DNA of 64,000 nt, taken from Escarpia spicata (lineage: Eukaryota; Annelida; Polychaeta; Sabellida; Siboglinidae). The notes beneath the pieces were generated by a model. The model saw nothing but the letters and a program-made list of their open reading frames with translations, ran no database searches and was not told where the DNA came from. Position 1 is the first letter of the stretch. The number at the start of each line of letters is the position of its first letter. This document shows positions 31,318 through 62,800 of the stretch, in pieces. The stretch is taken from positions 53,752,622 to 53,816,621 of the forward strand of contig OZ023213.1 in assembly GCA_963995525.1 (NCBI GenBank), written 5' to 3'. The position numbers were made by a program, and so were the translations under genes.

Positions 31318-31385
31318 GCTTAGCCGTGGACAGCCATGGTCAGGCGTGGTCAGCCGTGGTTAGCCGAAGCCAGCTGTGGTCAGCT
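31318..31385. repeat. ~12-bp repeat overlapping the MAPKAPK5 stop codon
   Basis: Five to six diverged units of GTGGTCAGCC. On the gene strand the units read GGCTGACCACG, and the TGA stop lies within the first of them. Confidence 0.7.
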
Positions 31386-31483
31386 AGGCTGTGAGGTTGT
31401 GGGGCTGTGTAGTGTCCGCTGGATGAGGTCACTCAGTGACTGTGCGAGGTGCAGGGTGTCTGTCTTCTCCCCCAGCGACTGGC
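31380..31483 (-). CDS. MAPKAPK5: MAPKAPK5 terminal exon 12 with stop codon
   Basis: The acceptor GTCTCAG joins in phase 1 to exon 11. It encodes aa 401-433, with EKTDTLHLAQSLSDLIQRTL aligning to human DKVDRLKLAEIVKQVIEEQ and a Ser/Thr-rich tail before TGA. Homology is modest but position, phase and length fit. The TGA sits at the edge of a ~12-bp repeat that continues into the 3' UTR. I did not identify a polyadenylation signal. Confidence 0.82.
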
Positions 31484-34400
31484 CTGAGACAAACATGTCA
31501 GCATGTGTCATACATGTCAGCATGTGTCAAATATTTCAGCATGTATCATACACCTCATTCTGTCACACACATAATTTTGTGTCACACATGTCATCATGCG
31601 TCACACATGTCATCACGTGTCACACATGTTATCATGTGTCATACATGGCACTCTCTGTCATACACGTCATCATATGTCACACAGGTCAGCTTGAGTCAAC
31701 ATGTAATCTTGTGTCTCATGTGTTAGCTCCTGTCACACCCCAGTGTCACAGAAACAGTGTTAGAGACTACACAGCTCATCATTCTAATGTCACACAATAA
31801 TAGAATAGCGAATCACCATCCAATGTCATAAACACAGTATTAGAAACTACACAACTCACCTCCCAATGTCACAAACACAGTATTAGAGACAACACAACTC
31901 ACCTCCCAATGTCATAAACACAGTATTAGAGATTACACAACTCACCATCCCAATGTCACACAATATTAGATATTACATACTCACCATTACAATGTCACAT
32001 ACACAGTATTATATACTACACAGTTCACCATTCCAATGTCACATACACAGTATTAGAGACTACACAACACACCATCCCTATGTCACAGACACAGTAATAG
32101 AGTCTACGTTACTCACAATCTCAATGTCACACACAGTATTAGAGACTACACAACTCACCATCCCAATATCACAAAGTATTACATACCACACAGTTCACCA
32201 TTCCAATGTCACATACACAGTATTAGAGACTACACAACACACCATCCCTATGTCAGACACAGTATTAGAGTCTACGTTACTCACAATCTCAATGTCACAC
32301 ACAGTATTAGAGACTACACAACCCACAATACCAATGCCACAAAGTATTAGAGACTACACAACTCACCATACCAATGTCACAAAATATTATATACTACACA
32401 GCTCACCATTTCAATGTCACATACACATTATTAGAGACTACACAACCCACCACGCCAATGTCACAAAGTATTAGAGAGTATACTAGTCGCCATACTAATG
32501 TCACAGAGTATTAGAGACGACGCAACTCACCATACCAATGTCACAGACACAGTATTACAGACTACACAACTTACCATTACATTGTCACATACACATTATT
32601 ATAGAATACAAAATTCACCATACCAATGTCACAAAGTATTAGAGAGTACACAACTCACCATCCCAATGTCACAAAGCATTATATAAACAACTCACCATAC
32701 CAATGTCATAAAGTATTAGAGACTACACAAGTCACCATACCAATGTCACTGACACATAATTACAGAAAACACAATTCACCATTACAAAGTCACATACACA
32801 GTATCATAGACTACACAACTCACCATACCAATGTCACATACACATTATTAGAGACTACACAACTCACCACCTCAATGTCACAGACACAGTATTAGAGACT
32901 ACACAACCCACCATACCAATGTCACAAAGTATTAGATACTACACAACTCACCATGCCAATGTCACAAAGTATTACCGACTACACTAGTCGCCATACCAAT
33001 GTCACAAAATATCAGAGACTACGCAACTCACCATACCAATGTCACAGACACAGTATTACAGACTACACAACTTACCAATACATTGTCACATACACATTAT
33101 TAGAGAATACAAAATTCACCATACCAATGTCACAAAATATTAGAGAGTACACAACTCACCATCCCAATGTCACAAAGTATTCTATACTACACAGCTCACT
33201 ATTGCAATGTCACATACACAGTATTAGAAACTACACAAGTCACCATTCCAATGTCACATACACAGTATTAGAAACTACACAAGTCACCATACCAACATAA
33301 TTCACCATTACAAAGTCACATACACAGTATCATAGACTACACAACTCACCATACCAATATCACAAACACAGTATCAGAAACTACACAACTCATCACACAT
33401 TGTCACAAACACAGTATTGGACACTACATAACTCACTACCCAATGTCACAAACATAGTATTAGATACTGCACAACTCACCTCCCAATGTCACAAACACAG
33501 TACTAGACACTACACAACTCACAATCCCAATGTCAAAACGTATTATATACTACAAAGCTCACCATTTCAATGTCACATACACAGTATTACAGACTACTCA
33601 ACTCACCATACTAATGTCACAAAGTATTAGAGTCTACACAACTCACCAACTCAATGTCACAGACAGAGTATTATCAACTACACAACTCACCATGTCAATG
33701 TCACAGACACAATATTAGAGACTACACAAGTCACCTTACCAATGTTGCAAAGTATTAGAGAGTAACCATCCCAATGTCACAAACTATTATACACTAAACA
33801 ACCCACCACACCAATGTCATAAAGTATTAGAGACTACACAACTCACCATCCCAATGTCACAGACACAGCATTATCAACCACACAACTCACCATCTCAATG
33901 TCACAGACACAGTATTAGAGACTACACAACTCACCATGCCAATGTCACAAAGTATTAGAGACTACACAACTCACCATCCCAATGTCACAGACACAGTATC
34001 AGAGACTACACAAGTCACCATACCAATGTCACAAAGTATTAGAGACTACACAACTCACCATACTAATGTCACAAAGAATTAGAGACTACACAACCCACCA
34101 TAGCATTGTCACAAAGTTTTAGAGACTACACAACTCACCGTACCAATGTCACAAAGTATGAGAGACTACACAAGTCACCATACCAATGTCACAAAGTGTT
34201 AGAGACTCCCAATGTCACAAAGTATTAGAGAGTAAACAACTCACCATCCCAATGTCACAAGGTATTATACACTATACAGCTCACCATTCCAATGTCACAT
34301 ACACAGTATCAGAGACTACATAACTCACCATACCAATGTCACACAGTTTTGAGACTACACAACTCACCATACTAATGTCACATACACAGTATATTAAAAA

Positions 34401-35754
34401 CTATACAACTCGCCATACCAATGTCAAAAAGTATTAGAGAATATACAACTCACCATAACAATGTCACAAAGTATTAGAGACTACACAACTCACCATCCCA
34501 ATGTCACAGACACAGTATATTAAAAACTACGCAACTCACAATCCCAAAGTCACACAATATTTGAGACTACACAACCCACCATTACAATGCCACAAAGCAT
34601 ATAATTAGAGACTACACAACTCACCATTCCAATGTCACAGACAGTATTAGCGACTATACAACTCACCATTCCAATGTCACAGACAGTATTAGCGACTACA
34701 CAACTCACCATTCCAATGCCAGCGATCCAGTATATCAGTGAGCGAAACGCAGTCGGTGTTATGATCACATGCTCGGCGCAACAACTGGTTCAGTGTTTCT
34801 GTGTCGTCAGTGGCGCCATCTAACGGGAGCAGGAGGTAGCATGCATGGCAAATGTCACTCTCTACTTCTATAACATGTTTCTCAATACAAACGTTACCAG
34901 GTCATTCTTTTCATGGCACTAGATTACTCTGTTGGAAGTAAAATACTGGTTGTGTTTTAGAAACCTCACACTGTCACTTCCGGTAGCTGCAATTTGTCTT
35001 AGCCCAGATTCAAATTTTTATTAACACAAATATGATGTGAATTTGTTGACCAGCAAGATAAAACATCAGTGAGACGTTTTTATAATAAACGTGATTTCAC
35101 CTGACTGATAGTCGTACAGTGGTCAATGCAAGGTGCAGTATTTGGTGATGACCACTGTTGGGACTGACCAGTATTAGTGCTGACCACTGTTGGGACTGAC
35201 CAGTGTTGGTGCTGACCACTGTTGGGACTGACCAGTGTTGGTGCAGACCATTGTTGGGACTGACCAGTGTTGGTGCTGACCACTGTTGGGACTGATCAGC
35301 ATTGGTGCTGACTACTGTTGGTGCTGACCACTGTTGGGACTGACCAGTGTTGGTGCTGACTACTGTTGGTGCTGACCACTGTTGGGACTGACCAATGTTG
35401 GGACTGACCACTATTGGGACTGTTTGTGTGATCAGTGAACGAATCAAGACACTGACTCACCGACTAATGCAATAGACGGCAATACCTACGGACCTGACGT
35501 TATGAGGACACAATGGGTTATGACATCTACTAACCTGGTGTTTTGAGGATGCAGTGGGCTATGACGTCACGCAGGGTTTTAATTGCCATGCTGTTTGAGG
35601 TTTGCTTTGAGGGACGTTCAGTTTGTGGATTATCTTGCGATCCACATCTAAAATGTGGGACACTCTGTGTAGTTAGCAGAAGAGATAAGACAGCCTTGTG
35701 TACAAGTTTGTGTGTGTGCGTGTGTGCGTGCGTGTATGTTTGTGTGTGTGTGTA

Positions 35755-35790
<36 letters not shown>

Positions 35791-38700
35791 TGTACATGTG
35801 TGTGTGTGTGTGTGAGTGAGTGTGCATGTGTGTGTGTGTGCATGTGTGTGTGTGTGTGCATGTGTGTGCCTGCGTGTGTGTGTATGTGTGGGAGCGCACA
35901 TGTGTATTTGTGTGTGTGTCTGTGTGTGTGCGTGCACTCGTGTGTGCATGTACATTCTAATACCACATATTAATTCAGTGTGAATAACGTAAACATTATG
36001 TCTTGTCAGGTCAGAAAGCATTTAGGAATAGAGTTAACACATTTAGTTATGAATGTCCCTACATGTTGTTTACATTTTAACTGTTTATTTTGTATAAAAT
36101 GTAAATGATACACCTTTATGAAAGTGATAAGATGTGACTGTGAGTATTGGCCAGCCTGGAGGCAGTGGTGAGGATGTTGAGCCACGGCAAACAAACAAAC
36201 AATCAAACAAACAAACAAACAAACACACCACACAAGACATGCATCACACACAAGTGCAGTCATCCACACATCACACTGGCAACAACAGCACACACAGCCT
36301 TCAAGACAGCAAAACACAAAGAAATGTTATGTTGGAAGCAAAAGTCAGCCCCTCTCCCCGCATGATGTCCACCACCCCATGGATATCACTGGCACCCCAT
36401 GGACATCACCCCATGGACGCCATCCCACGTCTCTATCCCAAGCCACACACTATGGCCTCACCCCATGGACACCACCCCATTGCCCTAGCACAAGCCACAC
36501 CCTATGGCCCCACCCCATACACACCACCTCATTGCCATAGCCCAGGCCTCACCCCATGGACACCACCACATGGACATCACCCCCTGGACACCACATCATG
36601 GACATAACCCCATGGACACCACGACATGGACATCACCACATGGACACCACGACATGGACATCACCCCATGGACATAAACCCATGGACACCACCACATGGA
36701 CATCACCCCATGGACATAACCCCATGGACACCACCACATGGACATCACTCCATGGACATCACCCCGGCCTCAGGTGTGCAGATTACCTGGACTGGAGTCG
36801 TTTGCGCATGATGGGGTTGTTGACCTGGGCGATGGGTTTCAGGGTGACGCGGTTGTCTGGCATCCTCATACTGGTGAGGGTCTCTGAGTACGCCTGCTGC
36901 ACCTCCGCCAGGCTCGACTACACAGAGGACAGAGGTGAGACGGGAGAGAGAACAGAGAGGGGAAGAGGTAGGGAGGGGGAGAGGTACGGAGGGAGAGAGG
37001 GAGGGAGGAGGAGAGGGAGAGAGGGAGGGATGGAGAGAGGGAGTGAGGGAGGTAGGGATGGAGGGAGAGAGGGAGGGAGAGAGGGAGGGAAGGAGAGAGG
37101 GAGAGAGAGAGGGAGGGAGGGAGCAAAGATTGTGTATGAAATAGCAAAACAGGCTTAGTGAACCCCCTATTGGGACGATTAGCAAGTATGTAACATCCGG
37201 TCTTGTATCCTAGCAATGGCCCTTGGCGGGCTATACACAACTGCCAGAAAGCGTGTCAGCGTCTATTGTATTAAAACAAGAAAAACAATCCACTATTTTT
37301 TTCAGCTGTGCATCTTTGGCTGGTCACCCTAAGAACTTGTATATTACTCTCAGCAGACCTGCCTACCCCAAAAACTTCCTGTCAGTAAATCATCTTCCTA
37401 TTTACACTGATTTTCAGGAATATAGGCTTGTTGTCAGTAATAGTTCAGAACCGTGTGAGATATTGTCACGAAAAGAACACCACTGTCAGTAATACTTTAA
37501 TACTGTGACTATGACGATAGTTGCACCTGTTTTGTAGTGTTCAGTTAACAAGGTAAGGTAGATGTTCATAACCAGCATTGATGGAAATCAAACGTGAAGA
37601 AGCGTAACTGTAATGTAAATGAGTCTATACACATTGTAATTATGATTTTATGTAAATTTCAAGAACTTGACAAATTATAACAATGCATCACGTCATTATC
37701 TATTTGTGGTGTCATTAGGATTAATATTAGTTGCCGGTATACCTAGGGCCAGGTTATAGACTATACAGTATAGTAGCTTGACTAGATCAAAGACAAATTC
37801 ATGCCGGGGGACGACAAAACCATTATGTTACGCTAGTCATCGACATCGTCTAGACTCTAGTCTACTCAACTCTAGTATATAAGCCTATCCCTGTATTATA
37901 GGCTGTAAATGATATACTAAACTCAATAAATACACTAACTTAGTCTTAGTACAGTCAGTTGGCCTAACACTACAAGTACAACACCCACTACTCTGTCACT
38001 AGTACTAGTTTAACGACGTAGTCAGTACCTGCATTTATCCCGGCCACCATGTGACCATGTGAAATGGAAAATAAATTTTGCGTATCCGGCAGTATGTAAA
38101 GCCGACTCGGCACTTGTGTATAATCCGGACCCACTTTGATTTTGCTGTTATAACCTGTGTTTTACCTAACTTTGATACATCAGAGCGTTAGTTCCATCAT
38201 TCAACATCATCCCAGGCATATTTATATTATGAAAATATTGTGTCTTAGCGCACCTTTGAAGCCCAAATAGTGACCCGGTTTGCACTAGCCTGCACCGCTG
38301 CGGTCGTGCGTTACCACATCGCGCTCGTAGAATGAGCGATATATTGGCGTATGTTGTTGCAAATAGGGGCGTTATTTATGCCTCAAAAATGTGCTAACAC
38401 GCAATATTTTTAAACGTAAATATGCCTGGGATAATGTTGAATAATGGAACTAACGCACTGAGGACGTATCAAACATTTAAAGTTAGGCAAAACTCAAGTT
38501 ATAAAGGCAAAATCGAGGTGGGTCCGGATTCTACACAAGTGCCGCCGACTCCCTTCTTTAAACTTGACAATACGGGCCATGTTTGCGTGCATGCTGTTAT
38601 AAACGTTTGCACGTTTCTTCTTGGATTCTGTTATAAACGTTTGCACGTTTCTTCTTGGCTGGTAGTGGTGCCGTTTCGATCCCCGGCATCATTTCGTGCT

Positions 38701-40330
38701 GCATGAGTTATTTTATGACTAATGGTCCCAATATGGAACTTCCATTACAGACACAACGGTGGTGCCACCTTCAGGAAGGAGTTGCCTTAAAATATAAAAA
38801 CGTAGTTATTCAACCCAAATAAAATATGTTATCAGTAGTGAGGGATGTTCCCTAAAATCAGGAGTTCTCTTGAGGGGTGATATCTAGTGAGTGGTGATAT
38901 AGACTAACAATGATATCTAGTGAGTGATGATATCTACTGACAGTGATATCTAGGGAGGGATATATCTCATGAGGGGTATTATCTAGTGAGGACTGATCTC
39001 TAGTGAGGGGGTGATATTTTGTGACAGGTGATATCTACTGAGGGGTTGATACCTAGTGATAGGTGATATTTAGTGACGGATGATATCTACTGAGGGGTAA
39101 TATCTAGTGAGTGGTGATCTCTAGTGAGGTGTGATATCTTGTGAGGTGTGATCTCCAGCGAGGGGTGATCTTTAGTGAGAGGTGATATCTATTTGGAGTG
39201 ATATATAGTGAGGGATGATATCTGGTAAGGGGTGATCTCTAGTTAGGGGCAATATCTAGTGAGGGGTGATATCTAGTGAGTGGTGATCTCTAGTGAGTGT
39301 TGATATCTACTGAGGGTGATATCTATAGAGGGGTGATCTCTACTGAGGGCGATATCTAGCGAGGGGTGATCTCTAGTGAGGGGTGATATCTAGTGATGGG
39401 TGGTCCTTAATGAGTGACATACCTTGTCCATCATGATGGCCGGAGAGAGAAGCTGTGTGTCAGGCGCGTCCCGCAGCCACGGGTGGTCAAGGACCTGGCG
39501 GATGGTCAGTCGTGCTTCAGGGTCAACCAGCAGAAGTCTGCAGCCACAGTGGACACAATGACTGACCACAACAACAGTGGTTCACCCAAACCTCACACAA
39601 GTAGACACTGGATCACCCACAGGTATATGTAGCGAAGAAAGCAAGACCACCCACCTAGCGACGAGATCCTTGGCCGAGTGTGATATGTGGGCCCAGTCTT
39701 CGTCAACGAACTCATAGTTTCCTGCAAGAATCTTTTTCTTCATTCCGCGACTGATCACCTTCGTAGGGGTCTCCGAGTAGAAGGGTGGGTACCCCGTCAA
39801 CATGATGTACACCAGCACCCCCAGACTCCACATGTCACAGCTCTGTTGGGGGTAAACACAGATCATAGCTCTGCTGGGGTAAACACAGGTCACAACTCTG
39901 TGGGGGGTAAACACAGGTCACAGCTCTGTGGGGGGCTCCATAAGAGTATACATGGCAATGCCATTTTGGGGGCAAAAATACACGTTTCAAGATGGGATGC
40001 AGTTTCTTATGTTCCGCCGTATGTCCTGTGGATGCAATTTTGTTCTGGCTCAAACTGGTCTGATGGTCCGATTTTGGCAGTTTGTTTGTTGTATATTTAC
40101 AAAGATGAAACTGTTGACCAAACAAACACAAATGTATTTCAAAACCCAGCTACTTTGTAATTTGACAAAAAACAATTTCACTTGGTGGTGCCACCTACTG
40201 AGTGAACTGGTTTGATACAATAAGTCATGAAGACAGCAGTGCATGTTAACTCGACTGGAGATTTGTTCTTGTGAAGGTGGCCACAAATTAGGTGTGTAGA
40301 TATCTGTGCAGAATCCTTTGAATAATCAAC

Positions 40331-40361
<31 letters not shown>

Positions 40362-43300
40362 TCTACATAGATATATTGGACAGTATAGCAAGTGTCTCAG
40401 TACTCCCATACCATCAGTGCATGTTCATTTTAGTTACGCCACATCAATTCACAAATATTTGAACCCCATTTCTTTGGGTACACCCCATTTATGAGAACCT
40501 ATGACCACTGCCATACGCTGATTGGGTACCTTGTCATATGTGTACGGCTGTCCTTTAGGCAGGATGTACCAACTTTCTTACTGTGACTAAGTACCTTGTC
40601 ATATGTGTACGGCTGTCCTTTAGGCAGGATGCAGTATTTTTCTCTCGCTTGTCTTTGCTGTGCTTCTAGGACCTGCATAATTTACGCACACATTCCAACA
40701 GTTATACAAAATATGTAAACAATGACATAAGTTGTACAACTTATGTACATGATAACATTACAACACAGCCATTCATTCCGTGTTGTCAGTTTTAATATTC
40801 CGTTGAACTATCATGCAATTGATCATTGTCATGTAATTACTCAACATTTTAGTATTACATTACCATTTTGTATACTACATTAATACAAAAATATACTATG
40901 TAAAAAGTATTATAGTTAAAAGTACATGTTAGTTTTGTCACAGCGAAATGTGCTTGAACAACAACTTGTGCAATGAACAACTATTTGACCAATAAAATGA
41001 CTGTATCTAGAAAGAGAAACACATAATTGTGCTGCCTAGTTCAACAAACCCCTAAGTACATATTTGTAATTTAAGCGAGAAAACCCCATTCAAAGTTTGA
41101 ACAGTATATTCCATGCTTAACGTGCTTCGCATATCAGTTTTGTTTTGCCATCTCGACTGACCAGTTGCCTCAGGTCATCTTCCATGTACATTTGTCAACT
41201 TTTTAATGATAATTAATTATGCAGTCAGATAATTAGTCAAAAATGCTCTTTTTGTGTATCAGACAGTTTTTTATCCTCCGAATCCAGCTTTCCAAGGTCG
41301 AATCGAGCGGCCACTTTAATTTTCCCTGTTTGCTCAACATATGTCTTCCCTCTGTTCCTGCGCCACTGACGCACCTGCTTTGCCCAGGTTTCAGGGTTTC
41401 TAACAAGCTTCCTGCTTCGATCAGTATCCATTTGAAACAGCTAAAAATCACACTCGTATACACTAAAAACCGATCAAAAACAAGAAGAAATATGGAGGCT
41501 GCGCTCGTTGTGAACAACAGACAGGTCACGGCTAGTTATTGGTTAGAACCTGCTATCACCTGCGAGGACTTAAGGGTTTGTTCATCCACTATATTTTGCC
41601 ATTCAGAGCACCCAGTAAAACAAGGATAGCAGGACTTGGGTGCATGAAATCATTAATATTAGTAAGTAGCAGTACAGATGGATAGTAGCGGCACTTGTTG
41701 ACCAATCACAAATATTTTTCCCAAAAATGGACTAAGGGGGTTGTTGAACTAGGCAGCACAATTGTATCAATGTCGATATTCCCCAAGGGGTCACAGGGAG
41801 TGAAATAGGGGTGTCATCATTACCATAGGGGCCATGTAGTAGGGGGTGAAGTAGGGGTGTCATCATTACCAGAGGGGCCATGTAGTAGGGGGTGACATAG
41901 GGGTGTCATCATTACCAGAGGGGCCATGTAATAGGGGGTGAAATAGGGGTGTCATCATTACCAGAGCGGCCATGTAGTAGGGGTGAAATAGGGTTGTCAT
42001 CAATACCAGAGGAGCCATGGTAGTATGGGGTGAAATAGGGGTATCATCATTACAAGAGGGGCCATGTAGTAGGGGGTGAAATAGGGGTGTCATCATTACC
42101 AGAGGGGCCATGGTAGTAGGGGGTGAAATAGGGGTATCATCATTACCAGAGGGGCCATGTAGTAGGGGGTGAAATAGGGGTGTCATCATTACTAGAGGGG
42201 CCATGTAGTAGGGGGTGAAATAGGGGTGTCATCATTACCAGAGGGGCCACTGTAATAGGGGGTGAAATAGGAGTGTCATCATTACCTGAGGTGCCATAGT
42301 AGTAGGGGGTGAAATAGGGGTGTCATCATTACCAATGGGGCCATGTAGAAGGGGATGAAATAGGGGTGTCATCATTACTAGAGGGGCCATGTAGTAGGGG
42401 GTGAAATAGGGGTGTCATCATTACCAGAGGGGCCATGTAGTAGGGGGTGAAATAGGGGTGTCATCATTACCAATGGGGCCATGTAGTAGGGGGTGAAATA
42501 TGGGTATCATCATTACCACAGGGGCCATGTAGAAGGGGATGAAATAGGATGTCATCATTACCAGAGGGGCCATGTAGTAGGGGGTGAAATAGGGGTATCA
42601 TCATTACCAGAGGGGCCATGTATTAGGGGATGAAATAGGATGTCATCATTACCAGAGGGGCCATGTAGTATGGGGTGAAATAGGGGTGTCATCATTACCA
42701 GAGGGGCCACTGTAATAGGGGGTGAAATAGGAGTGTCATCGTTACCTGAGGTGCCATAGTAGTAGGGGGTGAAATAGGGGTGTCATCATTACCAGAAGGG
42801 CCATTTTGTAGTAGTGAAATATGGGTGTCATCATTACCAGAGGGGCCATGTTGTAGGGGGTGAAATATGGGTGTCAACATTACCTAAGGGGCCAAGTAGA
42901 AAGGGGTGAAATAGGGGTGTCATAATTACCTGAGGGGCAACATAGTAGGGGGTAAAATGGGGGGTCATCAGGGTGCCATCATCCACTTTGGCAAAACCGA
43001 AATCTGAGAGTTTCACCATCGCTTGCTGCAAGCACACAGAGACATGGTTTCAGGTTTAACATGATTTCATGTGATTAAAATGCACAGTAACGACCACCAG
43101 CAGCCAGTGAACAAGACAGACTCAAGCTTGTCAAGAGCAACTAATTTTGAAACTACGTGTAATCTATCCCTTTGTTTTAAGTATATATTATCTTGGTAAT
43201 GACAATGATATATGTGTATATTTAGGTAAAAGTAACCAATAGTGAAAGAATTAACACATTGTAAATTAAACATAGAGATAAATTATACACAAATCAACAT

Positions 43301-46300
43301 AAATATATTCATGGTGTAATTTGTTAACAAATGAAAACTACTAAATAAAAACAAGTATAGTCGATACTAAAAATTTTTAAACAACAATTATTGACCAGGG
43401 ATACTCACAAAGACAAGAAGGTCGCTATCATGAGATCCACCATTAAATATATTACAAAATTAGACTAATCAATAAATAATTATTTAATAATTAATTAATT
43501 AAAAAGGAAGGTTTGGACGTAAGAATATCAAGTAAAAAAGTAGACATCATCTAGGACAACTGGTGCAACAATAAGACATACCCTAACAAATATATATCTT
43601 GAAGATATTCATATAATCACATATATTATATCTTCAGGTACTTCGAGGTCACAGTAAATGTTAGTTACTATCGATGTGACAATTCCCATACAACTGAAAC
43701 AAATTAAACAAGAATAACTAAACAACTAACAATTGAAATACTACTTGTTGACAGTAAACATGTGTTGGTTGCCTGTCGTGTATGGTCACTAGTGGACATT
43801 TGCAGTCATTAGAGGTCACTTGTGGTCACTAGAGGTCATACATGGTTACCTCAGAATTATCCTTGAGCAGCAGATTCTCAGGCTTGATGTCACGGTGCGC
43901 CACATTAAGAGAATGACACCTGTCTATGGCCAGTGCAATCTGAAACAACAACATTCAACTGTGTCATTGGGCTGTATTGAGATAATGACACCTGTCTATA
44001 GCCAGTACAATCTGAAACAACATTCAACTGTGATAGTGGGTCATATTGAGAGAATGACACCTGTCTATGGCCAGTGCAATCTGAAACAACAACATTCAAC
44101 TGTGACAGTGGGCCACATTGAGAGAATGACACCTGTCTATAGCCAGTGCAATCTGAAACAACAACATTCAACTGTGACAGTGGACCACATTGAGAGAATG
44201 ACACCTGTCTATAGCCAGTGCAATCTGAAACAACAACATTCAGCTGTGACAGTGGGCCACATTGAGATAACGAGAGAATGACACCTGTCTATAGCCAGTG
44301 CAATCTGAAACAACAACATTCAGCTGTGACAGTGGGCCACATTGAGAGAATGACACCTGTCTATAGCCAGTGCAATCTGAAACAACAACATTCAGCTGTG
44401 ACAGTGGGCCACATTGAGATAACGAGAGAATGACACCTGTCTATAGCCAGTGCAATCTGAAACAACAACATTCAACTGTGACAGTGGGCCACATTGAGAG
44501 AATGACACCTGTCTATAGCCAGTGCAATCTGAAACAACAACATTCAACTGTGACAGTGGGCCACATTGAGAGAATGACACCTGTCTATAGCCAGTGCAAT
44601 CTGAAACAACAACATTCAACTGTGACAGTGGGCCACATTGAGAGAATGACACCTGTCTATAGCCAGTGCAATCTGAAACAACAACATTCAGCTGTGACAG
44701 TGGGCCACATTGAGATAACGAGAGAATGACACCTGTCTATAGCCAGTGCAATCTGAAACAACAACATTCAACTGTGACAGTGTGCCACATTGAGAGAAGG
44801 CTTTGACTGTAAACAAGAGGACTCAAATTCAGAATATCTCAACTGAGAGTTTGATGCTCTAACCACTGTGCCACCATGTCCCAGATCTTACGTCATTGTC
44901 TTCTCACATAGTCGATGCCATTGTTGTAGCACGGACTGGGTATGTGACCTCATATAACTGTCACGCTCGCTGGTGCATGGACGTTGTTGTAGGTGTAGTT
45001 TGGCCCTGGTTCCACTGCATTGATCCAATGTCAAGTAGATAGCTTATGTCATTACTGAATGTGTGTAGTTTAGCACTGGTTCCACTGCAATGATCCAATG
45101 TCAAGTGGATAGCTTATGTCATTATTGAATGTGTGTAGTTTAGCACTGGCTCCACTGCAATGATCCAATGTCAAGTGGATAGCTTATGTCATTATTGAAA
45201 GTGTGTAGTTTAGCACTGGTTCCACTGCAATGATCCAATGTCAAGTGGATAGCTTATGTCATTATTGAATGTGTGTAGTTTAGCACTGGCTCCACTGCAA
45301 TGATCCAATGTCAAGTGGATAGCTTATGTCATTATTGAATGTGTGTAGTTTAGCACTGGTTCCACTGCAATGATCCAATGTCAAGTGGATAGCTTATGTC
45401 ATTATTGAATGTGTGTAGTTTAGCACTGGTTCCACTGCAATGATCCAATGTCAAGTGGATAGCTTATGTCATTATTGAATGTGTGTAGTTTGGCCCTGGT
45501 TCCACTGCAATGATCCAATGTCAAGTGGATAGCTTATGTCATTATTGAATGTGTGTAGTTTAGCACTGGCTCCACTGCAATGATCCAATGTCAAGTGGAT
45601 AGCTTATGTCATTATTGAATGTGTGTAGTTTAGCACTGGTTCCACTGCAATGATCCAATGTCAAGTGGATAGCTTATGTCATTATTGAATGTGTGTAGTT
45701 TAGCACTGGTTCCACTGCAATGATCCAATGTCAAGTGGATAGCTTATGTCATTATTGAATGTGTGTAGTTTAGCACTGGCTCCACTGCAATGATCCAATG
45801 TCAAGTGGATAGCTTATGTCATTATTGAATGTGTGTAGTTTGGCCCTGGCTCCACTGCAATGATCCAATGTCAAGTGGATAGCTTATGTCATTATTGAAT
45901 GTGTGTAGTTTAGCACTGGTTCCACTGCAATGATCCAATGTCAAGTGGATAGCTTATGTCATTATTGAATGTGTGTAGTTTAGCACTGGCTCCACTGCAA
46001 TGATCCAATGTCAAGTGGATAGCTTATGTCATTATTGAATGTGTGTAGTTTAGCACTGGCTCCACTGCAATGATCCAATGTCAAGTGGATAGCTTATGTC
46101 ATTATTGAATGTGTGTAGTTTAGCACTGGTTCCACTGCAATGATCCAATGTCAAGTGGATAGCTTATGTCATTATTGAATGTGTGTAGTTTAGCACTGGT
46201 TCCACTGCAATGATCCAATGTCAAGTGGATAGCTTATGTCATTATTGAATGTGTGTAGTTTAGCACTGGCTCCACTGCAATGATCCAATGTCAAGTGGAT

Positions 46301-49300: not shown

Positions 49301-52300
49301 GCATGCACGCACGCATGCAAGCATACATATGAACATACATATAACACACAAACACACAAACACGCACACACTCACTCAACCTGGGCTAACTCGAGTCATA
49401 AATTTCCTTTAGCAAAGTTGGCTAAAGGCCTGAAAGTTTCTTTAGCCAAATTCTTGTGGTGTTAGCCAAAATTAAACAAACACCATACCACCTTAATTGG
49501 ACTGACTAGACATTTAGAAATGCACCCAGTATTTGCCCCTCAGATAATATATAATGTGTATCTGTCCAGGCTGTCTTCAAGTATTATCAGCTTATACAAT
49601 GAGCAGTACTTGCGTGCACTTAAATGAAAAAATGTACATCCAGATCAGATATCAAGTTTGCAATAAACACTATTTAAACTTCTTCAAATAATTATCTTGG
49701 GATAAATTGTATAGTGTTTGTTTAAAAGTGTACACTAATGAAAAACTACTTTGATATTTTGAACAACACATGTTTATTGACATTTAACAAACACCTACTT
49801 TGGTAATCGATTTTATATTCATTCGCATCAATGTTCATAGAAAATTACCAATTACATTTCATCAACAGAATCTAACATACAGCATGTACTGTGACTATTC
49901 ATTAAAAAATATGACATTCATCACTTCAACAACGTATAACATTAATGGTCACTACATTCAAGTACTTGTCATATATAGTGATACACTATTAAATAAACAG
50001 TTTCCATCTTCTCTGGATTTCACGGCCTTGTAGTCATCAACTTCTCCACCAATCAATGTGCCTAGATCACCAGGGATCAACACTGTTGAAAATTGATCAA
50101 TTTCCATAGCATCATACATGTGCTGCAGCCTTGAGGTTCTTAAAGATGATCTGAATAAAGTGAACAAATTTGTGTCAGTAAAAATTTGAAACAACAGTGA
50201 GGGTCTGATAGCTAGTTGAAATCCAAAAATTTTTACTGGGGGGGGTGCCCAAGTCTCCTCATCCCAATTTGTTTACCCTCTCGTATTCCACATCCTAACA
50301 TTTTTTACTCCGAACATCCCACATCCAAAACCTTTGACACTTTGAGCTCATTTTATTGATGCTAATATAAAAATAATATCAGTTACACACCAACTAGTAC
50401 CAACGATTATATTGTTGAGTGTTGATGTTACTGTTTAATTATAGAAGTCAATATATACATATTGACTTTTATTAGTAAACAGTAACGTCAACTAGATCTA
50501 AACATTGTGATGGTTCTAGAATGCACTACATTAATGCTGGAAAGCATCTATCGACACTGACGCGTGATACCATGCCGGATGGCTGGTGCAATGCCAGATA
50601 GTTCAGATTTCAGAAGGCCAGACACGAGCGAAATAGCAAGTCTCGCTGTGTTGCGAGTCATATATCCACATGACATGCAAGTCATTTCAAAGATAATGTT
50701 CCATAGTTCACTGTTATCTCAAATTCATACTCTGATGCAGTATTTGTTTTACACGAATACAAAACATTAAACTTTGCGTACCTTCTGATTCTGACGCGGT
50801 CGATCGTGGCGTCCTGGAGCAGTCGTGCGTAGAAGCAGAGGAAGTAGACTTTGTTACGCTGGCAAGTGGATTATTATGTGACTAAATTAGGCCTAAGTCT
50901 TTGGAGCATGTACACATCGCACAGGAAAAAATGCTGTCAAAACATTTCACTTCAGTGTTATGTGTCAAAACGTAAATTTCTCGCAAATAAATGGCTTTAT
51001 TGCAGACTTTGAACTGACAACTAGGAAGTCATGAACACAGATATATTTTCGCAAAATTGGCGAAACCTATTAATTTCTCTTTCGCTATAAACCGAAGAAT
51101 TTCGCCTATGGCAAATTGGCGAATAGCTAGCGTGAGCCCAGACAACATACAACATACATGTCACACACATGCACGTACGCACGCACGCACACATAGATGT
51201 ACAGACATGCATGCACACAAGATACACACATACAGGCATGCACGCACGCACACACACTCGCACACATACATACATGTACAGACATGCATGCACACAAGAT
51301 ACACACATACAAACACACACACACACGCATGTACGTACACACATATATACCAACCTAACAGGGCCACTGATGCCACAACCTAGTTTCTGACTCCAGGTAA
51401 CATCGTAGTCATCCAGGATCGAGTGCACCTGGAACAGAAAACACACTGCTACAGGAGACAGAACACACTGCTACAGGAGACAGAACACACTGCTATAGGA
51501 GACAGAACACACTGTTACAGGAGACAGAACACACTGCTACAGGACACAGAACACACTCCTACAGGAGACAGAACACACTGCTACAGGAGACAGAACACAC
51601 TGCTACAGGATACAGAACACACTGCTACAGGAGACAGAACACACTGCTACAGGAGACAGAACACACTGCTACAGGACACAGAACACACTGCTACAGGAGA
51701 CAGAACACACTGCTACAGGACACAGAACACACTGCTACAGGAGACAACACACTGCTACAGGAGACAGAACACACTGCTACAGGAGACAGAACACACTGCT
51801 ACAGGAGACAACACACTGCTACAGGAGACATAACACACTGCTGCAGGAGACAGAACACACTTCTACAGGAGACAGAACACACTGCTACAGGAGACAGAAC
51901 ACATCGCTAATTCGCAATGTGTTCACCGATAATTACATTGCAGCTTATGTTGTAAACTGAACTGAATTAAATAGCATGGCATAGGTTATACCTATATGTG
52001 TACACACATTACAGCATTTCAAATGTAGGGACTTGATGCGCACTGCACAAGATGATTGATTATCTTAAAACTAACAATACAAATATTTATTAATATTTAA
52101 GTTTTAAAGCTTAATTATAATAATTATTCAAATCAAACTTCAAGTGAAGCTGAATGCCTGCGTGGTAAGCAACATGCCGTGAAATATATACAAAATATTA
52201 CTTAACAGGAAAGAAAATACAATTGTGTAGTACTATATATTTTAGAGAACTTTCATGAAATCTAATCATTTACAACTACAATAAACAATAAATATTGAGA

Positions 52301-53754: not shown

Positions 53755-53890
53755 ATGCTTACTTCACACACTATGTCGACGTTATCGTTGAGTAGGAACG
53801 TTGTTTTGTTTGGTTCAGCTGCCGCAGCGTTTGTTGCCGGTGTCTATGTAATTTGGGGACCGAATCAGAAGAAGCGCACCAAGCAAAAAG
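53755..53890 (+). CDS. USP30: USP30 exon 1 (membrane anchor)
   Basis: Start codon, short leader, a single hydrophobic segment (aa 16-34), then the basic stretch NQKKRTKQKG. This is the topology of a signal-anchored outer mitochondrial membrane protein. The donor is AAAAG|GTACAA in phase 1. The leader is shorter than in human USP30, where about 30 residues precede the anchor. Confidence 0.88.
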
Positions 53891-56800
53891 GTACAATCAT
53901 AACAATGTCGATGACGTCTCTCTGACTGAGTCTGACTCTGTCTCTGATTTGGCTGTATGATACAGTGTATCTCATTCTCGGAGTCACACTCAGAGTCAGA
54001 CGTCACACAGTGTCAGTGACAGTCACTCTTGAGTCTGACTGTCAGAGTCAGACTCCAACTTAAGAGTCTGAGAGTTGGAGTCACAGTCCACTATTATAGT
54101 TATACTTAAAAGTTAAATGGCCCAGATTAGTTTCTTCCTAGTATTACTATTAGTACTGTCGTACTCACGGTACGGACTATTACTGTCCCTTTCCCTGGCT
54201 TAGGCTAACCTAGGGCCTAGGCCCTAGGCAGCTATGGCCTATGCATCACCCCAGCCCAGGGATAAGTACCTAGCCTAGGCTGTAGTAGTAGTACGTAATA
54301 CTAAAGTTGGCATAAAGTTTTATACACGTGGCAAGAACATTAATTTTGTGCCTGGTCACTGAAATCTCGTGTTCTAACACTCTTGGCCTATTTTAATACA
54401 CAACCTGATCTCACTGATTAACGTACGTGACATGCTCTGATCATAGATTCGGAACGATTAGTTTAAATATGTTATTCCTTTTAATGTATATTTTCATGTA
54501 CCTGTGTCTCGGTCGGAAATAAAAGCTTATAATAATATAAGTCATAATTATATATTAAATGTGCTTTAGCCACTAACGCATGAATGGTATTCGCGGAAAG
54601 AACGCTTTCATGATATGGATTGACAATTTCCACCGAATGACTTTGACATGTAAAAACACTTTCAAGAGTGAAATGTGACATACCCTGGTATTTCTGCCAT
54701 GTTTTCCATTTCCCATGGTGTCAGTTATTTGTTGAATAAATTATGGTTTACATGGTTGATTATATTCAGGACTTGTAAACCCCTAAGCGGGCTGGTATAC
54801 TTTTGTCTTTACTAGTCCTGCTGTCTAATACAAATATGAAGTTCTGCCCCTGCTATCAGGTGTTTGTTGTCTGCCACTAACAGGTGTTTGTTGTTTGCTA
54901 CCAACAGGTGTTCGTTGTTTGCCATTAACAGATGTTTGTTGTTGCTGTTCCAGGAACATGCCCTGGCCTGCTCAACCTTGGCAACACGTGTTTCCTGAAC
55001 GCTGTGCTCCAGGGATTGGCGCCATGTTCCTCAGTCGTCCACTGGCTCACAGAGTTTGTCGAGAAACGCACACATTCAGATTCATCGTGTTACCTGGCGT
55101 CAACCCTTCTCAAGGTGTTGAAAGGTATAATATTGGACATTGCAGACTCTACTAAAACATCCTCCTTAGTTGATTTAGCACATTACAAATCAGTTCTAAT
55201 GTTGGTGTTTACATTTGTAGTGTCTCAATTTAGTGTTAATGCATATTCAAATTAGGTCATGTAACTTGAGAAACTGATGGGCAGTTCCATCAAATGGTCA
55301 ACCTTGCCATCAGTATTTCAAATTAGGTTTATCTATATAAATAGGGTATAATTTTGAAGATTGATATGTCTTCTAGAAATGGAAATGTGATGAATTTATT
55401 ATGCCATTGCAGGAATTGTTAACTAATTAGGACAGTGTTCTGCCTAGGTCGAATTTGCAGGGCGTTACGCATTGCCCTTTTTCAGTGATGCCTTGGTACC
55501 CAAAAAAGGCAAAAAGAACGCCCTGCCTTTTTTTTATACAACGCTATGCTATATTTTGCATATAAATTTCATTAGAATATATTCTATGTTGGAATATGTT
55601 CTATATTACTGTAGGTATCCTGGTATCAAAATGTAGGCTATCCCATGCATGTACGTCCATAACAGAATACAAGCATATTTTTATTTTTGAGGTCTAATAA
55701 TTCCTTGATAAAAAAAACAGAAAAATACGCAAAGTACACTTATAGTCCGGAGTGTACATATAAGTTCTTAACTTTATTTTATTAATTATATTTTATGGTT
55801 AATAATCGTTATGGACGTACACATTTTATGTACGACCATAACACTGGATATCCATAACACAATTCTCAAAAGTGCTAAGTGGAGAAGACTGCCACATTTT
55901 GTCAGATATTTAAACAATAATTCACTGCTGCCTTCTACAGGATAGAAGCAATGTAATGACATTATTTCGTATGAAATACTGAAATATTTATTTTTATTTG
56001 ACTACATGCAGCTCTTATGAAGAAGGACATATGCGGATGAAATTCCTGAAATATAATATCCTAACAAAGGAATTTGAATTTGGCCACGGAGATGTGAAAC
56101 ACTGTGTGTCCCAAGGCAGTTCATCTTCAAGGGCCCTGTCACCTTGGTTGGATGTGGTCCATTTGGCATAGAAAACATGAAAGACATAAAATGAAAATTT
56201 GATGAACTGACACTATAATGTGTGTATCATATTCTTCTATGACAAGTTTGCTACACTTGATTTAGAAACTCATTTGCATTAAAGACCAGACCAATACTGT
56301 CATAGCCAGGGTCGTTGTGGGGACAAGCTCCCACTACATATAACGTGCCCCAGGGCATGCGTCTCACGTAGCCTCTGACAGTCAATTCCAGCTCCTGGCC
56401 TTCCTGTAACAAAACTGTTCAATGACAGCAGAAGGGGCAAAAGGCGATCATCTGATGCCTTCAAACCAGATGTTTCGGGCAGCTGGGGTTTGTCACGCTG
56501 GGAAGGCCACTCTGATTTCAAAACCCCACTGCCTTGTGGGTATTTTTGGGAGAAGAAAAGGCTAAGGAATAAACCCTACACAAATCTGAAGTGGAGCCCC
56601 AAGGCGGTCCATTACCTTTCTGGCAGCTCCTGCAGTTCCGTGGTCAGCTGGATCTAGAGGGGGACCATGGCACCAGGCAGCGCACAGTCTCCATATCTAC
56701 TTCTCGCCCAGGATTCATGATGCCAACTTCCCTCTTTCAATTTTTGTAAAAAAATGACCGTATTAAGCACACAGGACTATTGTTGTTGTCATATTTCAGT

Positions 56801-59800
56801 GTGGAAAAATTACAGTATTAAGAACACAGAACTATTGTTGTTGTCATATTTCAGTGTTGACCAATGACAGTATTGAGCACACACAGGACATGTGTTGTTG
56901 TCATGTTTGTTTTGAACAATCATAGTATTGAGCACACACAGGACTATTGTTGTTGTCATGTTTCAGTTTTGAACAATGACAGTATTGAGCACACACAGGA
57001 CTATTGTTGTTGTCATGTTTCAGTTTTGAACAATGACAGTATTGAGCACACACAGGACTATTGTTGTTGTCATGTTTCAGTTTTGAACAATGACAGTATT
57101 AAGCACACAGGACTATTGTTGTTGTCATGTTTCAGTTTTGAACAATGACAGTATTGAGCACACACAGGACTATTGTTGTTGTCATGTTTCAGTTTTGAAC
57201 AATGACAGTATTGAGCACACACAGGACTATTGTTGTTGTCATGTTTCAGTTTTGAACAATGACAGTATTGAGCACACACAGGACTATTGTTGTTGTCATG
57301 TTTCAGTTTTGAACAATGACAGTATTGAGCACACACAGGACTATTGTTGTTGTCATGTTTCAGTTTTGAACAATGACAGTATTGAGCACACACAGGACTA
57401 TTGTTGTTGTCATGTTTCAGTTTTGAACAATGACAGTATTGAGCACACACAGGACTATTGTTGTTGTCATGTTTCAGTGTTGAACAATGACAGTATTGAA
57501 CACACTGAGGACTGTTGTTGTTGTCATGTTTCACTGTTGAACAATGATAGTATTGAGCATACTCAGGACTATTGTTGTTGTGTGTTTCAGTGTTGAACAA
57601 TGACAGTATTGAACACATTCAGGACTATTGTTGTTGTGTGTTTCAGTGTTGAACAATGATAGTATTGAGCACACACAGGACTATTGTTGTTGTCATGTTT
57701 CAATTTTGAACAATGACAGTATTGAACACACTGAGGACTATTGTTGTTGTCATGTTTCACTGTTGAACAATGATAGTATTGAGCACACACAGGACTATTG
57801 TTGTTGTCATGTTTCAGTTTTGAACAATGACAGTATTGAGCACACACAGGACTATTGTTGTTGTCATGTTTCAGTTTTGAACAATGACAGTATTGAGCAC
57901 ACACAGGACTATTGTTGTTGTCATGTTTCAGTTTTGAACAATGACAGTATTGAGCACACACAGGACTATTGTTGTTGTCATGTTTCAGTTTTGAACAATG
58001 ACAGTATTGAGCACACACAGGACTATTGTTGTTGTCATGTTTCAGTTTTGAACAATGACAGTATTGAGCACACACAGGACTATTGTTGTTGTCATGTTTC
58101 AGTTTTGAACAATGACAGTATTGAGCACACACAGGACTATTGTTGTTGTCATGTTTCAGTGTTGAACAATGACAGTATTGAACACACTGAGGACTATTGT
58201 TGTTGTCATGTTTCACTGTTGAACAATGATAGTATTGAGCATACTCAGGACTATTGTTGTTGTGTGTTTCAGTGTTGAACAATGACAGTATTGAACACAT
58301 TCAGGACTATTGTTGTTGTGTGTTTCAGTGTTGAACAATGATAGTATTGAGCACACACAGGACTATTGTTGTTGTCATGTTTCAGTTTTGAACAATGACA
58401 GTATTGAACACACTGAGGACTATTGTTGTTGTCATGTTTCACTGTTGAACAATGATAGTATTGAGCACACACAGGACTATTGTTGTTGTCATGTTTCAGT
58501 TTTGAACAATGACAGTATTGAGCACACACAGGACTATTGTTGTTGTCATGTTTCAGTTTTGAACAATGACAGTATTGAGCACACACAGGACTATTGTTGT
58601 TGTCATGTTTCAGTGTTGAACAATGACAGTATTGAACACACTGAGGACTATTGTTGTTGTCATGTTTCACTGTTGAACAATGATAGTATTGAGCATACTC
58701 AGGACTATTGTTGTTGTGTGTTTCAGTGTTGAACAATGACAGTATTGAACACATTCAGGACTATTGTTGTTGTGTGTTTCAGTGTTGAACAATGACAGTA
58801 TTGAACATACCCAGGACTATTGTTGTTGTCATGTTTCAGTGTTGAACAATGACAGTATTGAACACACCCAGGACTACTGTCCAGCCGATGTGATCGCTGC
58901 CCTACGACTGCAGCGTTGGGTCATATCAGAGGACGAGCAGGTGGGTGGGGAGACTTGGTGCAGGAAAATTACCTAGTGGGTCATGTGACTAGCTTGTGGC
59001 AAGTCACTTTAGTAGCAAGATCCTCTAAGGGAAAGTCTGTATTTAGTGGCAAGTCACTGTGTTTCCCCTGGGTAAGATGATTGGCGAGATGTTAGGGATT
59101 GCTAGGGGGTTCCAGGGGCATGATCCCCTGGAATTTTTTATTTGCTTAAAAATGGTGCATTCTGAGGTATGTTTTAACCTATACTCTTGAATATAGATGG
59201 GAAGATAAACTTGTTTATTACATCACTTGTAAAAGTTGTAATCATGATTGACAAAAGTCAGTAATCATGATTGCTTTGAGTTGAGGTGTGATTTCCTCTT
59301 GACCACTGCTGGTACTCAGTTGAGGTGTGGTTTCCACTTGACCACTGGTACTCAGTTGAGGTGTGGTTTCCACTTGACCACTGGTACTTGGTTTGGTTGA
59401 TGTTTTTCTTACCCTAACCCTAGGCCTTGTGACCATATTGACAGGGTCATTGACAGGGTCATTGACAGGGTCAGTGACAGGGTCAGTGACAGGGTCAGTG
59501 ACAGGGTCAGTGACAGGGTCAGTGACAGGGTCAGTGACAGGGTCAGTGACAGGGTCAGTGACAGGGGTATCATCTGAAGATCCTTTCCCTCATCATCACC
59601 TTTAAATGATTATCATATCATAATATTATGATTGATTTGTTGTTGGTGGTTTCTGTTCCAAAAATTATACTTTATTTGCTGCTAGCATGCTATGCAATTA
59701 ATTAAACAGTCAATTCTGGAATGCCACAAAGGTATGTTTCTATTAACCGCTAGAACATTTCAAAAATTGTGTCTATAAAACAGTGTGTTGTTTAGTATAT

Positions 59801-62800
59801 CCACATTCTGTGCAAACATGTAATTGCCTAGCCCAAGGTATTGATAATCCGGTAGTATACACGGTTTTGGGCAATAGGCGTCTTACGAGATATGAACTTT
59901 CGTGGTTTATATTCATAAGTACGTCACTCGGATCAACTTTCCCAAAAGTTTGTTTGCACAACTTTGTCGGAATATGTATTGTACATTTAGCACAAGGATT
60001 TCTTACGAATCACATTCCTTATTTTGATAAAACGGAATAGAACATTAGTTGGGTAAGCTAGTGAGCACTTGTATAGAATCTGGACACACCTCGATTTCAC
60101 CTTTATAACTTGAGTTTTGCCTAACTTTGATATCAGTGAGTTAGTTCCATCATTCAACATTATCCTAGGCATATTTACCTTTAAGAATATTGCATCTTAG
60201 CACCTTTGGTGCATAAATAGCTCCCCGGTTTGTGTCAACATATGCTGCTATATTGCTAATTTGACGCACGCGATGCAGCAATGCACGACTACTGCAGCGC
60301 AGACTACCTGGTAGGTCAAACCGGGTCGCTATTTGGGCTTCAAAGGATCTGGATTCAACACAAGTGCCGACTAGTGACATAGTGTCATTAGCCTGCACAG
60401 TTTTTACTCCCACCACTGCCATAAACCAGAAATTCAACATCAGCTACACAAGAAATCTGATTTTTTGTGGGCGCATACTATAATAGTAAAATTTATCGCA
60501 AAAGACATCTTAATTCAGCTACCGTTTTCTTTGTTTTTTATCTGAGTTCCACATGTCTCCTAAACACAGTTACTGACGTTTGGGCGCCATATTACATGTC
60601 CAGATTGCTAGTATGTCAAAACTCCGCAAGATGTCGCCATTGGAGATACCGGGGATCCTGCGGAAATATTCCGTGATTGAACAACTGACAAGTGATGTCA
60701 TTCACGTTGTCCAATGGAGTTAATTCCAAAGTAAATCCTAACTGGCCCTGAGCGATGTTAAGATGACTAAACGATGTTGCTACAATTCTGCGATTTAGCA
60801 GGAATATAATTATATAAATTACTTTGTGGTGTCATTTTGCGCCGATCACCGAAAATATCACTGCGTATAGAAAAAAATGGGCGCACAAAATAGCTATGGG
60901 GTGGCAACTTCGTCATACTTTGGGCGAGGCGGTATAGAAAAATGGCAAGGCGGCCCGCCTCGCTCGTCATATACCAGGGGAAACACTGCTGTGTAGTGGC
61001 AAGTCACTTTGTCGTAGCAAGTTAGTGTAATGGAAAGTGACTTTATAGTGACAAGTAACTTTATAATCATAATGGCAAGACACTTGGTGGAGTGGCAACC
61101 GTTCCAGTAAGATAATCACCTCATACGACAACGCACCCACCATTTAATAAAATCCATCGTTAGCTTCAAGAGGCTTAAATCCAAAAATACAGTCGTATCA
61201 CTATTTCGATGAGGAGTAAACAAGTATCCTGGTGATGCATCTATATATACTGTAGTGTTAGTTCTCAATACACAGTGTCATTGTTAACAAGTGAAATCAA
61301 GATATAAACAGCAAAGTTAGGCTGGTTCTTAGAATGTCAGTGAAACAGCAAGGATGCAAGTAATCAGTTATTCAGATTAACCCAGATTCAACATGGGTAG
61401 GAATCAGTGTACTTGTGGATCCTCCTTCTCTAGTGATGACTCTGTTCTTGTAGTATTCTGGATCCCCAATCTCTACATATGAGTCTGTTTTGTAGGATTC
61501 TGGATCCTCCATCTCTAGAGATGAGCCTGTTTTGTAGATCCTGGATCCTCCATCTCTAGAGATGAGTCTGTTTTGTAGGATCCTGGATCCTCCATCTCTA
61601 GAGATGAGTCTGTTTTGTAGGATCCTGGATCCTCCATCTCTAGAGATGAGTCTGTCTTGTAGGATCCTGGATCCTCCATCTCTAGAGATGAGTCTGTCTT
61701 GTAGGATCCTGGATCCTCCATCTCTAGTGATGAGTCTGTTTTGTAGGATCCTGGATCCTCCATCTCTAGAGATGAGTCTGTTTTCTAAGATCCTGGATGT
61801 TGCATCTCTAGAGATGAGTCTGTTCTTGCAGGATGCACACGAGATGTTCCACGTGTTGACGGAGACACTTGACGAGGAAGCGACTCGCTTCCCCAGCGTC
61901 CTGCCTCTCTTTGATCTCAGTGCACTCCAGGTGAGACACATTTCTCAGTTTGTATGCCAGTAACCGTTGGCCACATCCATTATCGGGGCTAAAAACTGGT
62001 GTTCTGATCCATGTCTTATTGCTTACGATAGTTGGGCAACAAAAATGCGCAAGAAAATTGTGCAGCCTTTTCTAGCAATGTAATGATGATTATGATTCCT
62101 CTGGCAATGTAATGATGATTATGATTCCTCTGGCAATGTAATGATGATTATGATTCCTCTGGCAATGTAATGATGTTTATGATTCCTCTGGCAATGTAAT
62201 GATGATTATGATTCCTCTGGCAATGTAATGATGATTACGGTTGCTCTGGCATTGTAAGCAGGATTATGATTATTCTCACAACGTGTTATTCTGTCAGTCC
62301 TGTCATGGATCATTCTTCCTAGCATGTCACTTCTGTCGTGGATCATTCTTGTTACCATGTCAGTTGGTATGGACCATTCTTGTTACCATGTCACTTCTGT
62401 CATGGATCATTCCACCTACCATGTATTTTCTGTCACGGATCATTATTCCTGCCATGTCACTTCTGTCACATAATTCTTCCTCCCGTGTCACTTCTGTCAT
62501 GGACCACTGTACCTGTCATGTTACTGTTGTGCTGTAGGGCTGTCGGTCAGCTCAGTGCCAGCCCGCAGAGTCAGCACGCAGTAAGATTGAGGCCGACCTT
62601 CCTGTGCTGCCGCAGAGAGACTTCCGCCACCCCTTCCAGGGCCTGCTGGCCAGTCAGCTGCAGTGCAAGAAGTGTGGACACAAGGTAACATGGGTTGCCA
62701 CCCTTGGCCAGTCTCCACCATACACAACCCTTCTCCTGCTATCTCCCACCCCTCTCCCCATCCCTCTCTCCTAAATCTATCTCCTAATTATCTTTCTCTA

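Follow-up and report, generated by a model that had tools for sequence, protein, structure and literature searches.

Tandem arrays straddling exon-intron junctions in MAPKAPK5, USP30 and kinase genes extend the lancelet 'mirages' to an annelid

In lancelets, tandem duplications of the intron/exon boundary have been described as 'mirages' (available text of PMC3087553 and PMC3902484). By citation or report, the lancelet genes listed there also include those for retinol dehydrogenase, presenilin, troponin C and PGBD5, the mirages of PGBD5 and troponin C being added in the available part of PMC3902484. Two further systems deserve comparison. In the model of Rogers, as attributed in PMC3087553, an intron is gained when an AG/GT proto-splice site is duplicated in tandem. 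In earthworm metallothionein genes, according to the accessible sections of PMC12783039, an intron holds minisatellites in long arrays with a mean monomer of 178–181 bp, and duplications of exon 4 are absent from the transcript. Here we describe tandem arrays that straddle splice junctions of two neighbouring genes, MAPKAPK5 and USP30, within a stretch of 64,000 nucleotides (the window) on a 62.6-Mb contig of an annelid genome (GenBank OZ023213.1; assembly of 1.06 Gb in 1097 contigs), and similar arrays at kinase exons elsewhere in the same genome. With them a known phenomenon, the mirages, is extended to a second phylum.

To locate the exons of both genes, human proteins served as tblastn queries and the reading frame was followed, which gave 34 splice sites across MAPKAPK5 exons e2–e13 and USP30 exons 1–6; the initial annotation, made from the letters of the window, had counted about 33. 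Each junction was represented by a 30-mer of 15 exon and 15 intron bases, and a copy was accepted if it lay within 1.5 kb and matched at 21/30 or better. Such a copy was found at six of the 34 junctions. The e11 donor was counted as a seventh, with a match of 20/30, or of 21/30 when the probe held 20 exon and 10 intron bases, and the remaining 27 junctions scored 15–19. At all seven straddled junctions, four donors and three acceptors, the best copy lay on the intron side, and the array at the e12 donor occupies most of MAPKAPK5 intron 12 (Table 1). Taken as tandem copies, these matches exceed chance. The initial annotation had named six junctions with copies of exon bases plus the splice signal, and all six indeed carry them; its 'exon 11' donor corresponds to e11 or e12, and the e12 donor is otherwise an addition.

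Table 1. Genes and tandem arrays at exon-intron junctions, in window coordinates. Copies at MAPKAPK5 and USP30 junctions were counted at a match of at least 29/50, on the intron side only and within 3.3 kb. L numbers in this table denote kinase loci elsewhere in the genome. TRF, Tandem Repeats Finder; 30-mer, junction probe.
Feature	Exon	Array or region	Strand	Unit or spacing (bp)	Exon bases	Copies	Splice dinucleotide intact	Method
MAPKAPK5 coding region, exons e2–e13 (12 exons)		51428-31384	-					tblastn, in-frame GT-AG chain
USP30 exons 1–6; gene continues beyond window		53755-63657	+					tblastn, reading frame
Straddling, MAPKAPK5 e5 acceptor	43939-43850	43888..44798	-	72	~52	11	AG 11/11	TRF
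Straddling, MAPKAPK5 e6 donor	43025-42930	41795..42970	-	46	~41	24	GT 24/24	TRF, 30-mer
Straddling, MAPKAPK5 e7 donor, single extra copy of ~41 nt, offset 65	40672-40595	40511..40646	-			1		30-mer
Straddling, MAPKAPK5 e8 acceptor	39842-39655	39829..39935	-	28	~14-21	3		TRF, 30-mer
Straddling, MAPKAPK5 e11 donor, single diverged extra copy, offset 41	35647-35535	35482..35570	-			1		30-mer
Straddling, MAPKAPK5 e12 donor	34819-34709	31740..34718	-	~42	~10-21	63	GT 59/63	TRF
Straddling, USP30 exon 3 acceptor	58840-58940	56753..58880	+	57	~41	36	AG 29/36	TRF
Adjoining, MAPKAPK5 e2 acceptor	51428-51355	51440..51903	-	22	none			TRF
Adjoining, MAPKAPK5 e13 acceptor; last 20 intron nt match 15/20	31483-31384	31493..31715	-	19				TRF
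Adjoining, USP30 exon 2 acceptor; mimicry not significant		54853..54943	+	24				TRF
Adjoining, USP30 exon 4 acceptor; last 20 intron nt match 17/20		61416..61834	+	42				TRF
L055 donor, after DLKPE-type motif				~52		7		
L036 acceptor				88		8 in retrieved stretch		
L072 acceptor				~36		at least 8		
L032 acceptor				45		2		
L041 donor						1		
L074 donor						1		

The likeness to lancelet mirages, as far as the available text of those reports describes them, is close. In both the units span the exon-intron border and lie at 5' and 3' boundaries, the unit sizes overlap (10–160 bp in lancelets, 28–88 bp in the annelid), and AG or GT is preserved in many copies. Of the 34 window junctions seven, or six by the strict threshold, have units holding exon bases together with the splice signal, as do six of 85 kinase junctions in clear form, and donor as well as acceptor borders are duplicated. 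The initial annotation was right about amphioxus minisatellites at exon-intron borders, and these are the mirages (available text of PMC3087553 and PMC3902484). The hosts differ, mirages having been reported from cephalochordates, which is a matter of where they were reported and not of their definition. Lancelet mirages are reported there as leaving regular splicing undisturbed, and in the annelid the reading frame would favour the exon-proximal site. For the lancelet Adh gene, somatic or germline instability of copy number is reported. Copy number is higher in the annelid (up to ~63) than in the mirage of the lancelet globin BflGb6 (3 or 6), and unlike those in the accessible lancelet reports the annelid arrays occur across kinase genes and were gauged against the intron background. 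With the Rogers model the arrays share that tandem duplication copies splice signals, but they show no new intron: the copied junctions were already there, the copying runs inward, and the chain of exons is a normal one. The earthworm metallothionein genes are likewise annelid genes with long intronic arrays, although the accessible sections of PMC12783039 mention no junction-straddling units. Among the matches listed from open-licence literature, judged by title and start of abstract, no mirages outside lancelets were recognised.

The introns of MAPKAPK5 and USP30 are rich in tandem repeats throughout, a tandem copy being found for 46.8% of 5,453 tested intron positions. By distance from the exon the fraction was 0.46 at 20–40 nt, 0.42–0.56 at 20–400 nt, 0.40 at 600–1000 nt and 0.57 beyond 1000 nt; inside exons tandem copies were detected at 2/90 positions 40–50 nt in and at 0/132 positions farther than 50 nt. 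We then used a junction-blind model, in which each repeated intron position is weighted by the chance that its unit, at the observed periods, enters 15 nt of exon. This model expects 9.2 straddled junctions of 34, and seven (six strict) were seen. When arrays were instead moved randomly within their own introns and, among 32 junctions, those with 10 or more exon bases in an array were counted, 5.0–6.2 junctions were expected against the seven seen if exon entry of up to 50 nt was allowed (P 0.19–0.42). Straddling is thus not in clear excess over what such array-rich introns give, whereas abutting arrays exceed expectation. The argument of the initial annotation, that minisatellites placed by chance would not hit exon borders so often, found no support in the junctions sampled, since the junction-blind expectation exceeds what was seen, and against randomised positions the overlap with exon edges was in excess only when entry was restricted to 20–30 nt.

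A search of the genome for the Pkinase family gave 137 matches, from which a fixed rule (free of stops, at most 330 bases, open frame of at most 150 amino acids) was used to take 52 exons on 14 contigs. Flanks of 800 nt were taken for 40 exons and of 400 nt for 12; a splice-motif filter kept 85 of the 104 possible junctions and dropped 19. Here the density of tandem copies fell monotonically, from 14.3% at 200–385 nt in the intron through 12.3% at 30–60 nt and 11.4% at 15–30 nt to 8.2% at the junction, and inside the exon to 3.8% at 15–25 nt and 0/1,700 at 40–60 nt. Seven of the 85 junctions were straddled and the junction-blind model expected 7.0; six are clear (Table 1), and the doubtful seventh is the L033 donor, whose best copy matches at 29/40. 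Array ends at -10..+25 nt did not pile up significantly (7 against 4.6, P 0.18, and 9 against 9.1, P 0.56, at two settings). Those lying 10–50 nt inside exons numbered 6 against 5.2 or 10.4 expected, and the corresponding figures for MAPKAPK5 and USP30 were 3–6 against 3.4–5.6. An enrichment of array seeds at junctions over the adjacent intron was not found in the 85 kinase junctions, and the view that splice sites themselves are amplified is not supported in general. Exon-straddling arrays do recur in unrelated parts of the genome, and what makes MAPKAPK5 and USP30 conspicuous is the high share of arrays in their introns (46% against 14% in the kinases).

We consider it probable that the arrays are minisatellites of the mirage type, which arise by random tandem duplication in and around genes and are tolerated at junctions, splice sites being neither targeted nor spared. 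The segments duplicated in tandem would be short, typically of 20–90 bp, and their position in or near genes random; the duplications would then grow, presumably by slippage or unequal exchange. A duplication entirely within an exon would disrupt the protein and be lost, and one entirely within an intron would be neutral. A duplication straddling a junction would keep an intact junction at the exon edge and shift the extra copies into the intron; because the junction at the exon edge would always be intact, such duplications would be tolerated. Under these rules arrays would reach the junction at nearly the density of the intron and fade within the exon over about one unit length. Splicing would have to disregard the decoys and choose the exon-proximal copy, as the reading frame suggests. 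Donors and acceptors were straddled alike (4 and 3 in the window, 3 and 3 among the clear kinase cases). Among the processes offered in the initial annotation, selection tolerating only intron-directed expansion is the one that stands. The window also contains two-copy tandem duplications of 33–71 bp with 97–100% identity (18659-18800, 22217-22313, 26569-26636 and 38594-38658), and these are likely the starting state of such arrays.

Several results weigh against random duplication with tolerance as the whole account. In the re-placement null, 3.5–4.0 junctions were expected against seven when exon entry was limited to 30 nt (P 0.026–0.074), and ~2.5 when it was limited to 20 nt (P 0.002–0.005). 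Since the observed arrays enter exons by 21–48 nt (about 10–52 nt by TRF ends), we took the 50-nt null as the fairest, and the two shorter ones look too strict. The ends of arrays gave a stronger signal. Every array was collapsed to one 45-bp unit and 36 junctions were used, including those of two USP30 exons beyond the window. At three settings 12, 14 and 13 ends fell at -10..+25 nt against 3.0, 4.9 and 4.1 expected (P 0.0001–0.0006), and 15, 18 and 19 at -50..+25 nt against 6.4, 10.6 and 8.8 (P 0.0018–0.023). Random re-placement likewise showed an excess of abutting arrays (10–12 against 3.3–5.3, P 0.000–0.002). At one setting the -10..0 bin stood out in the kinases, with 4 ends (4.7 per kb against a baseline of 1.5), and the ratio of junction to intron density, 0.59, has a wide bootstrap range of 0.23–1.07. 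Moreover, the kinase exon edges were set by HMM match and splice-motif score, with no transcripts, and some flanks overlap or hold unmasked neighbouring exons. The abutting pile-up in MAPKAPK5 and USP30 may reflect decayed mirages, or the fact that the window was chosen by a reader for this very pattern.

Decay is the alternative that survives best, although we regard it as tentative. Exon edges would then not be seeds; old straddling arrays would turn into abutting ones, because the coding sequence fixes the exon while the copies drift, so that similarity on the exon side goes first; this would explain both the pile-up of array ends and abutting arrays that mimic the neighbouring acceptor. 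Mimicry was scored by comparing the array unit with the last 20 intron bases, or with the first or last 20 exon bases, in 200 shuffles. Among the nine abutting arrays tested, the last 20 intron bases were matched in four, each of them at an acceptor (MAPKAPK5 e2 and e13, USP30 exons 4 and 8), at 17/20 for USP30 exon 4 (reached in 0/200 shuffles) and at 15/20 for MAPKAPK5 exon 2 (2/200), and exon bases in none of the nine (P ≥0.16). No mimicry was detected at the four abutted donors tested, nor at the USP30 exon 2 acceptor (12/20, P=0.435). Of the three abutting arrays that the initial annotation had described as mimics of the adjacent acceptor, all exist, but the mimicry stood for MAPKAPK5 exon 2 and USP30 exon 4 and not for USP30 exon 2. 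Consistent with decay, copies matched less on the exon than on the intron side at the e6 donor (0.69 against 0.91), the e12 donor (0.56 against 0.84) and the e8 acceptor (0.57 against 0.69). The exon side was, however, as similar or more so at e5 (0.96 against 0.91) and USP30 exon 3 (0.93 against 0.88), and likewise at e7 and e11. The missing mimicry at USP30 exon 2 and at the donors and the lack of a significant pile-up in the kinase sample also speak against decay, and the mimicry that was found could stem from a shared sequence bias of acceptor tracts.

Beyond the window, at the acceptor of USP30 exon 8 (68208 in window coordinates; ~4.0–4.2 kb of locus L003), the abutting repeat unit matches 17/20 of the last 20 intron bases; the limits of this array were set by hand.

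It is rather unlikely, on our assessment, that exon edges themselves shape the arrays at some loci, acting like start points or barriers of repeat growth, although the three- to fourfold excess of ends within -10..+25 nt would fit such a role. We give still less credit to junctions as preferred seeds, at which breakage linked to transcription or splicing (R-loops, break repair at junctions) starts the arrays. The 7/34 straddled junctions, with several more abutted in the same two genes, and the over-representation of array ends at exon edges of the window would agree with it. The 85 kinase junctions show no peak at the junction, the straddle counts equal those of the junction-blind model, donors and acceptors are affected equally, and the window was selected by a reader for its striking look, all of which argues against seeding.

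The copies preserve splice signals to a considerable extent. At the seven junctions of the window the splice dinucleotide is intact in 127 of 140 copies, and by a simple motif score 67 of these 127 equal or surpass the real site. Of the 59 copies with an intact donor GT in the array of MAPKAPK5 intron 12, 27 equal or surpass the real donor, and in the array before USP30 exon 3 all 29 copies with an intact AG equal or surpass the real acceptor. It would be possible to read the copies as functional, as selected repeated splice signals, intronic enhancers or alternative exons. The nearest copy at USP30 exon 3 (-57; 58783-58940) would lengthen exon 3 by 19 in-frame residues and bring in no stop, and the GT columns of the e12 array rank above 82–90% of the other columns for conservation, the highest of four arrays tested. 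In the other three arrays the dinucleotide ranked at 0.28–0.74, and the remaining 126 intact copies, if used, would shift the frame or introduce a stop. The dinucleotides are thus no clear conservation outliers in the four arrays, selection on the copied splice signals is not supported by this test, and we hold a function of the copies to be very improbable. Judged from the reading frame, the exon-proximal copy is likely the functional site at every junction.

An assembly artefact, with repeats collapsed or expanded by the assembler, is scarcely credible: the copy numbers of near-identical arrays are those of a single assembly, but copies differ among themselves (mean identity 0.73–0.94 in four arrays), and the same arrangement recurs on other contigs at loci not linked to these.

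We concluded from mitochondrial gene order that the genome is that of an annelid. COX1 matched contig C1097, where a locus of 4.3 kb has the order nad3-trnS(tct)-nad2-cox1-trnN-cox2-trnD-atp8-trnY-trnG-start of cox3. Apart from cox1 and the tRNAs, the genes were identified from their translations, and a weak tRNA call on the opposite strand inside cox1 was disregarded; by reading of the translations, AGA as Ser and AAA as Lys best fit the conserved sites. Without trnE, this is the usual annelid order. Lancelets have many GFP genes; no GFP family match was obtained in the genome, a weak negative as the controls were silent too, and a cephalochordate host was rejected on the mitochondrial gene order and on this negative. 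Amphioxus, which the initial annotation had brought up, is therefore not the host. According to the available text of PMC2639372, whose annelid pattern the order on C1097 fits, nad3 lies between nad1 and nad2 only in annelids and their kin, and Sipunculus, without the move of nad3, has cox1-N-cox2-D-atp8-Y-E-G-cox3. Adjacency of atp8 and atp6 is given for hetero- and hoplonemerteans, a brachiopod and a chiton in the accessible part of PMC3368773. A molluscan host was rejected, atp8 being followed here by trnY-trnG-cox3 and not by atp6; PF14830 gave no match, again a weak negative with silent controls.

The two genes lie head to head and are divergent, with ~2.3 kb (51428-53755) between the outermost exons found. 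The 12 MAPKAPK5 exons form a chain in frame with GT-AG introns, as do those of USP30 after the addition of exon 3; MAPKAPK5 exon 1 was not located by the tblastn and reading-frame search of the window. Tandem Repeats Finder returned 125 rows for the window. Inspection by eye of 1–31 kb for another gene gave no usable one, but retrotransposon-like fragments and repeats. In their translations, 14022-14989 (-) and 25254-27201 (+) are open stretches that, by eye, resemble the reverse transcriptase of non-LTR retrotransposons. Farther along the contig (L006–L008, ~98–116 kb in window coordinates), translations read by eye point to an apparent pair of inverted, adjacent copies of one gene with laminin- and EGF-like stretches.

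Earlier descriptions of mirages each dealt with single lancelet genes, and a part in the origin of new introns has been proposed for them. With 6–7 of 85 sampled kinase junctions (7–8%) straddled in an annelid, they are no lancelet oddity, and their measurement against the intron background suggests that a junction-seeking process is not needed in general. The arrays at the e12 donor and at USP30 exon 3 offer a sharp test of splice-site choice. The introns of MAPKAPK5 and USP30 would also be natural experiments in which dozens of copies of equal or greater strength are passed over for the exon-proximal site.

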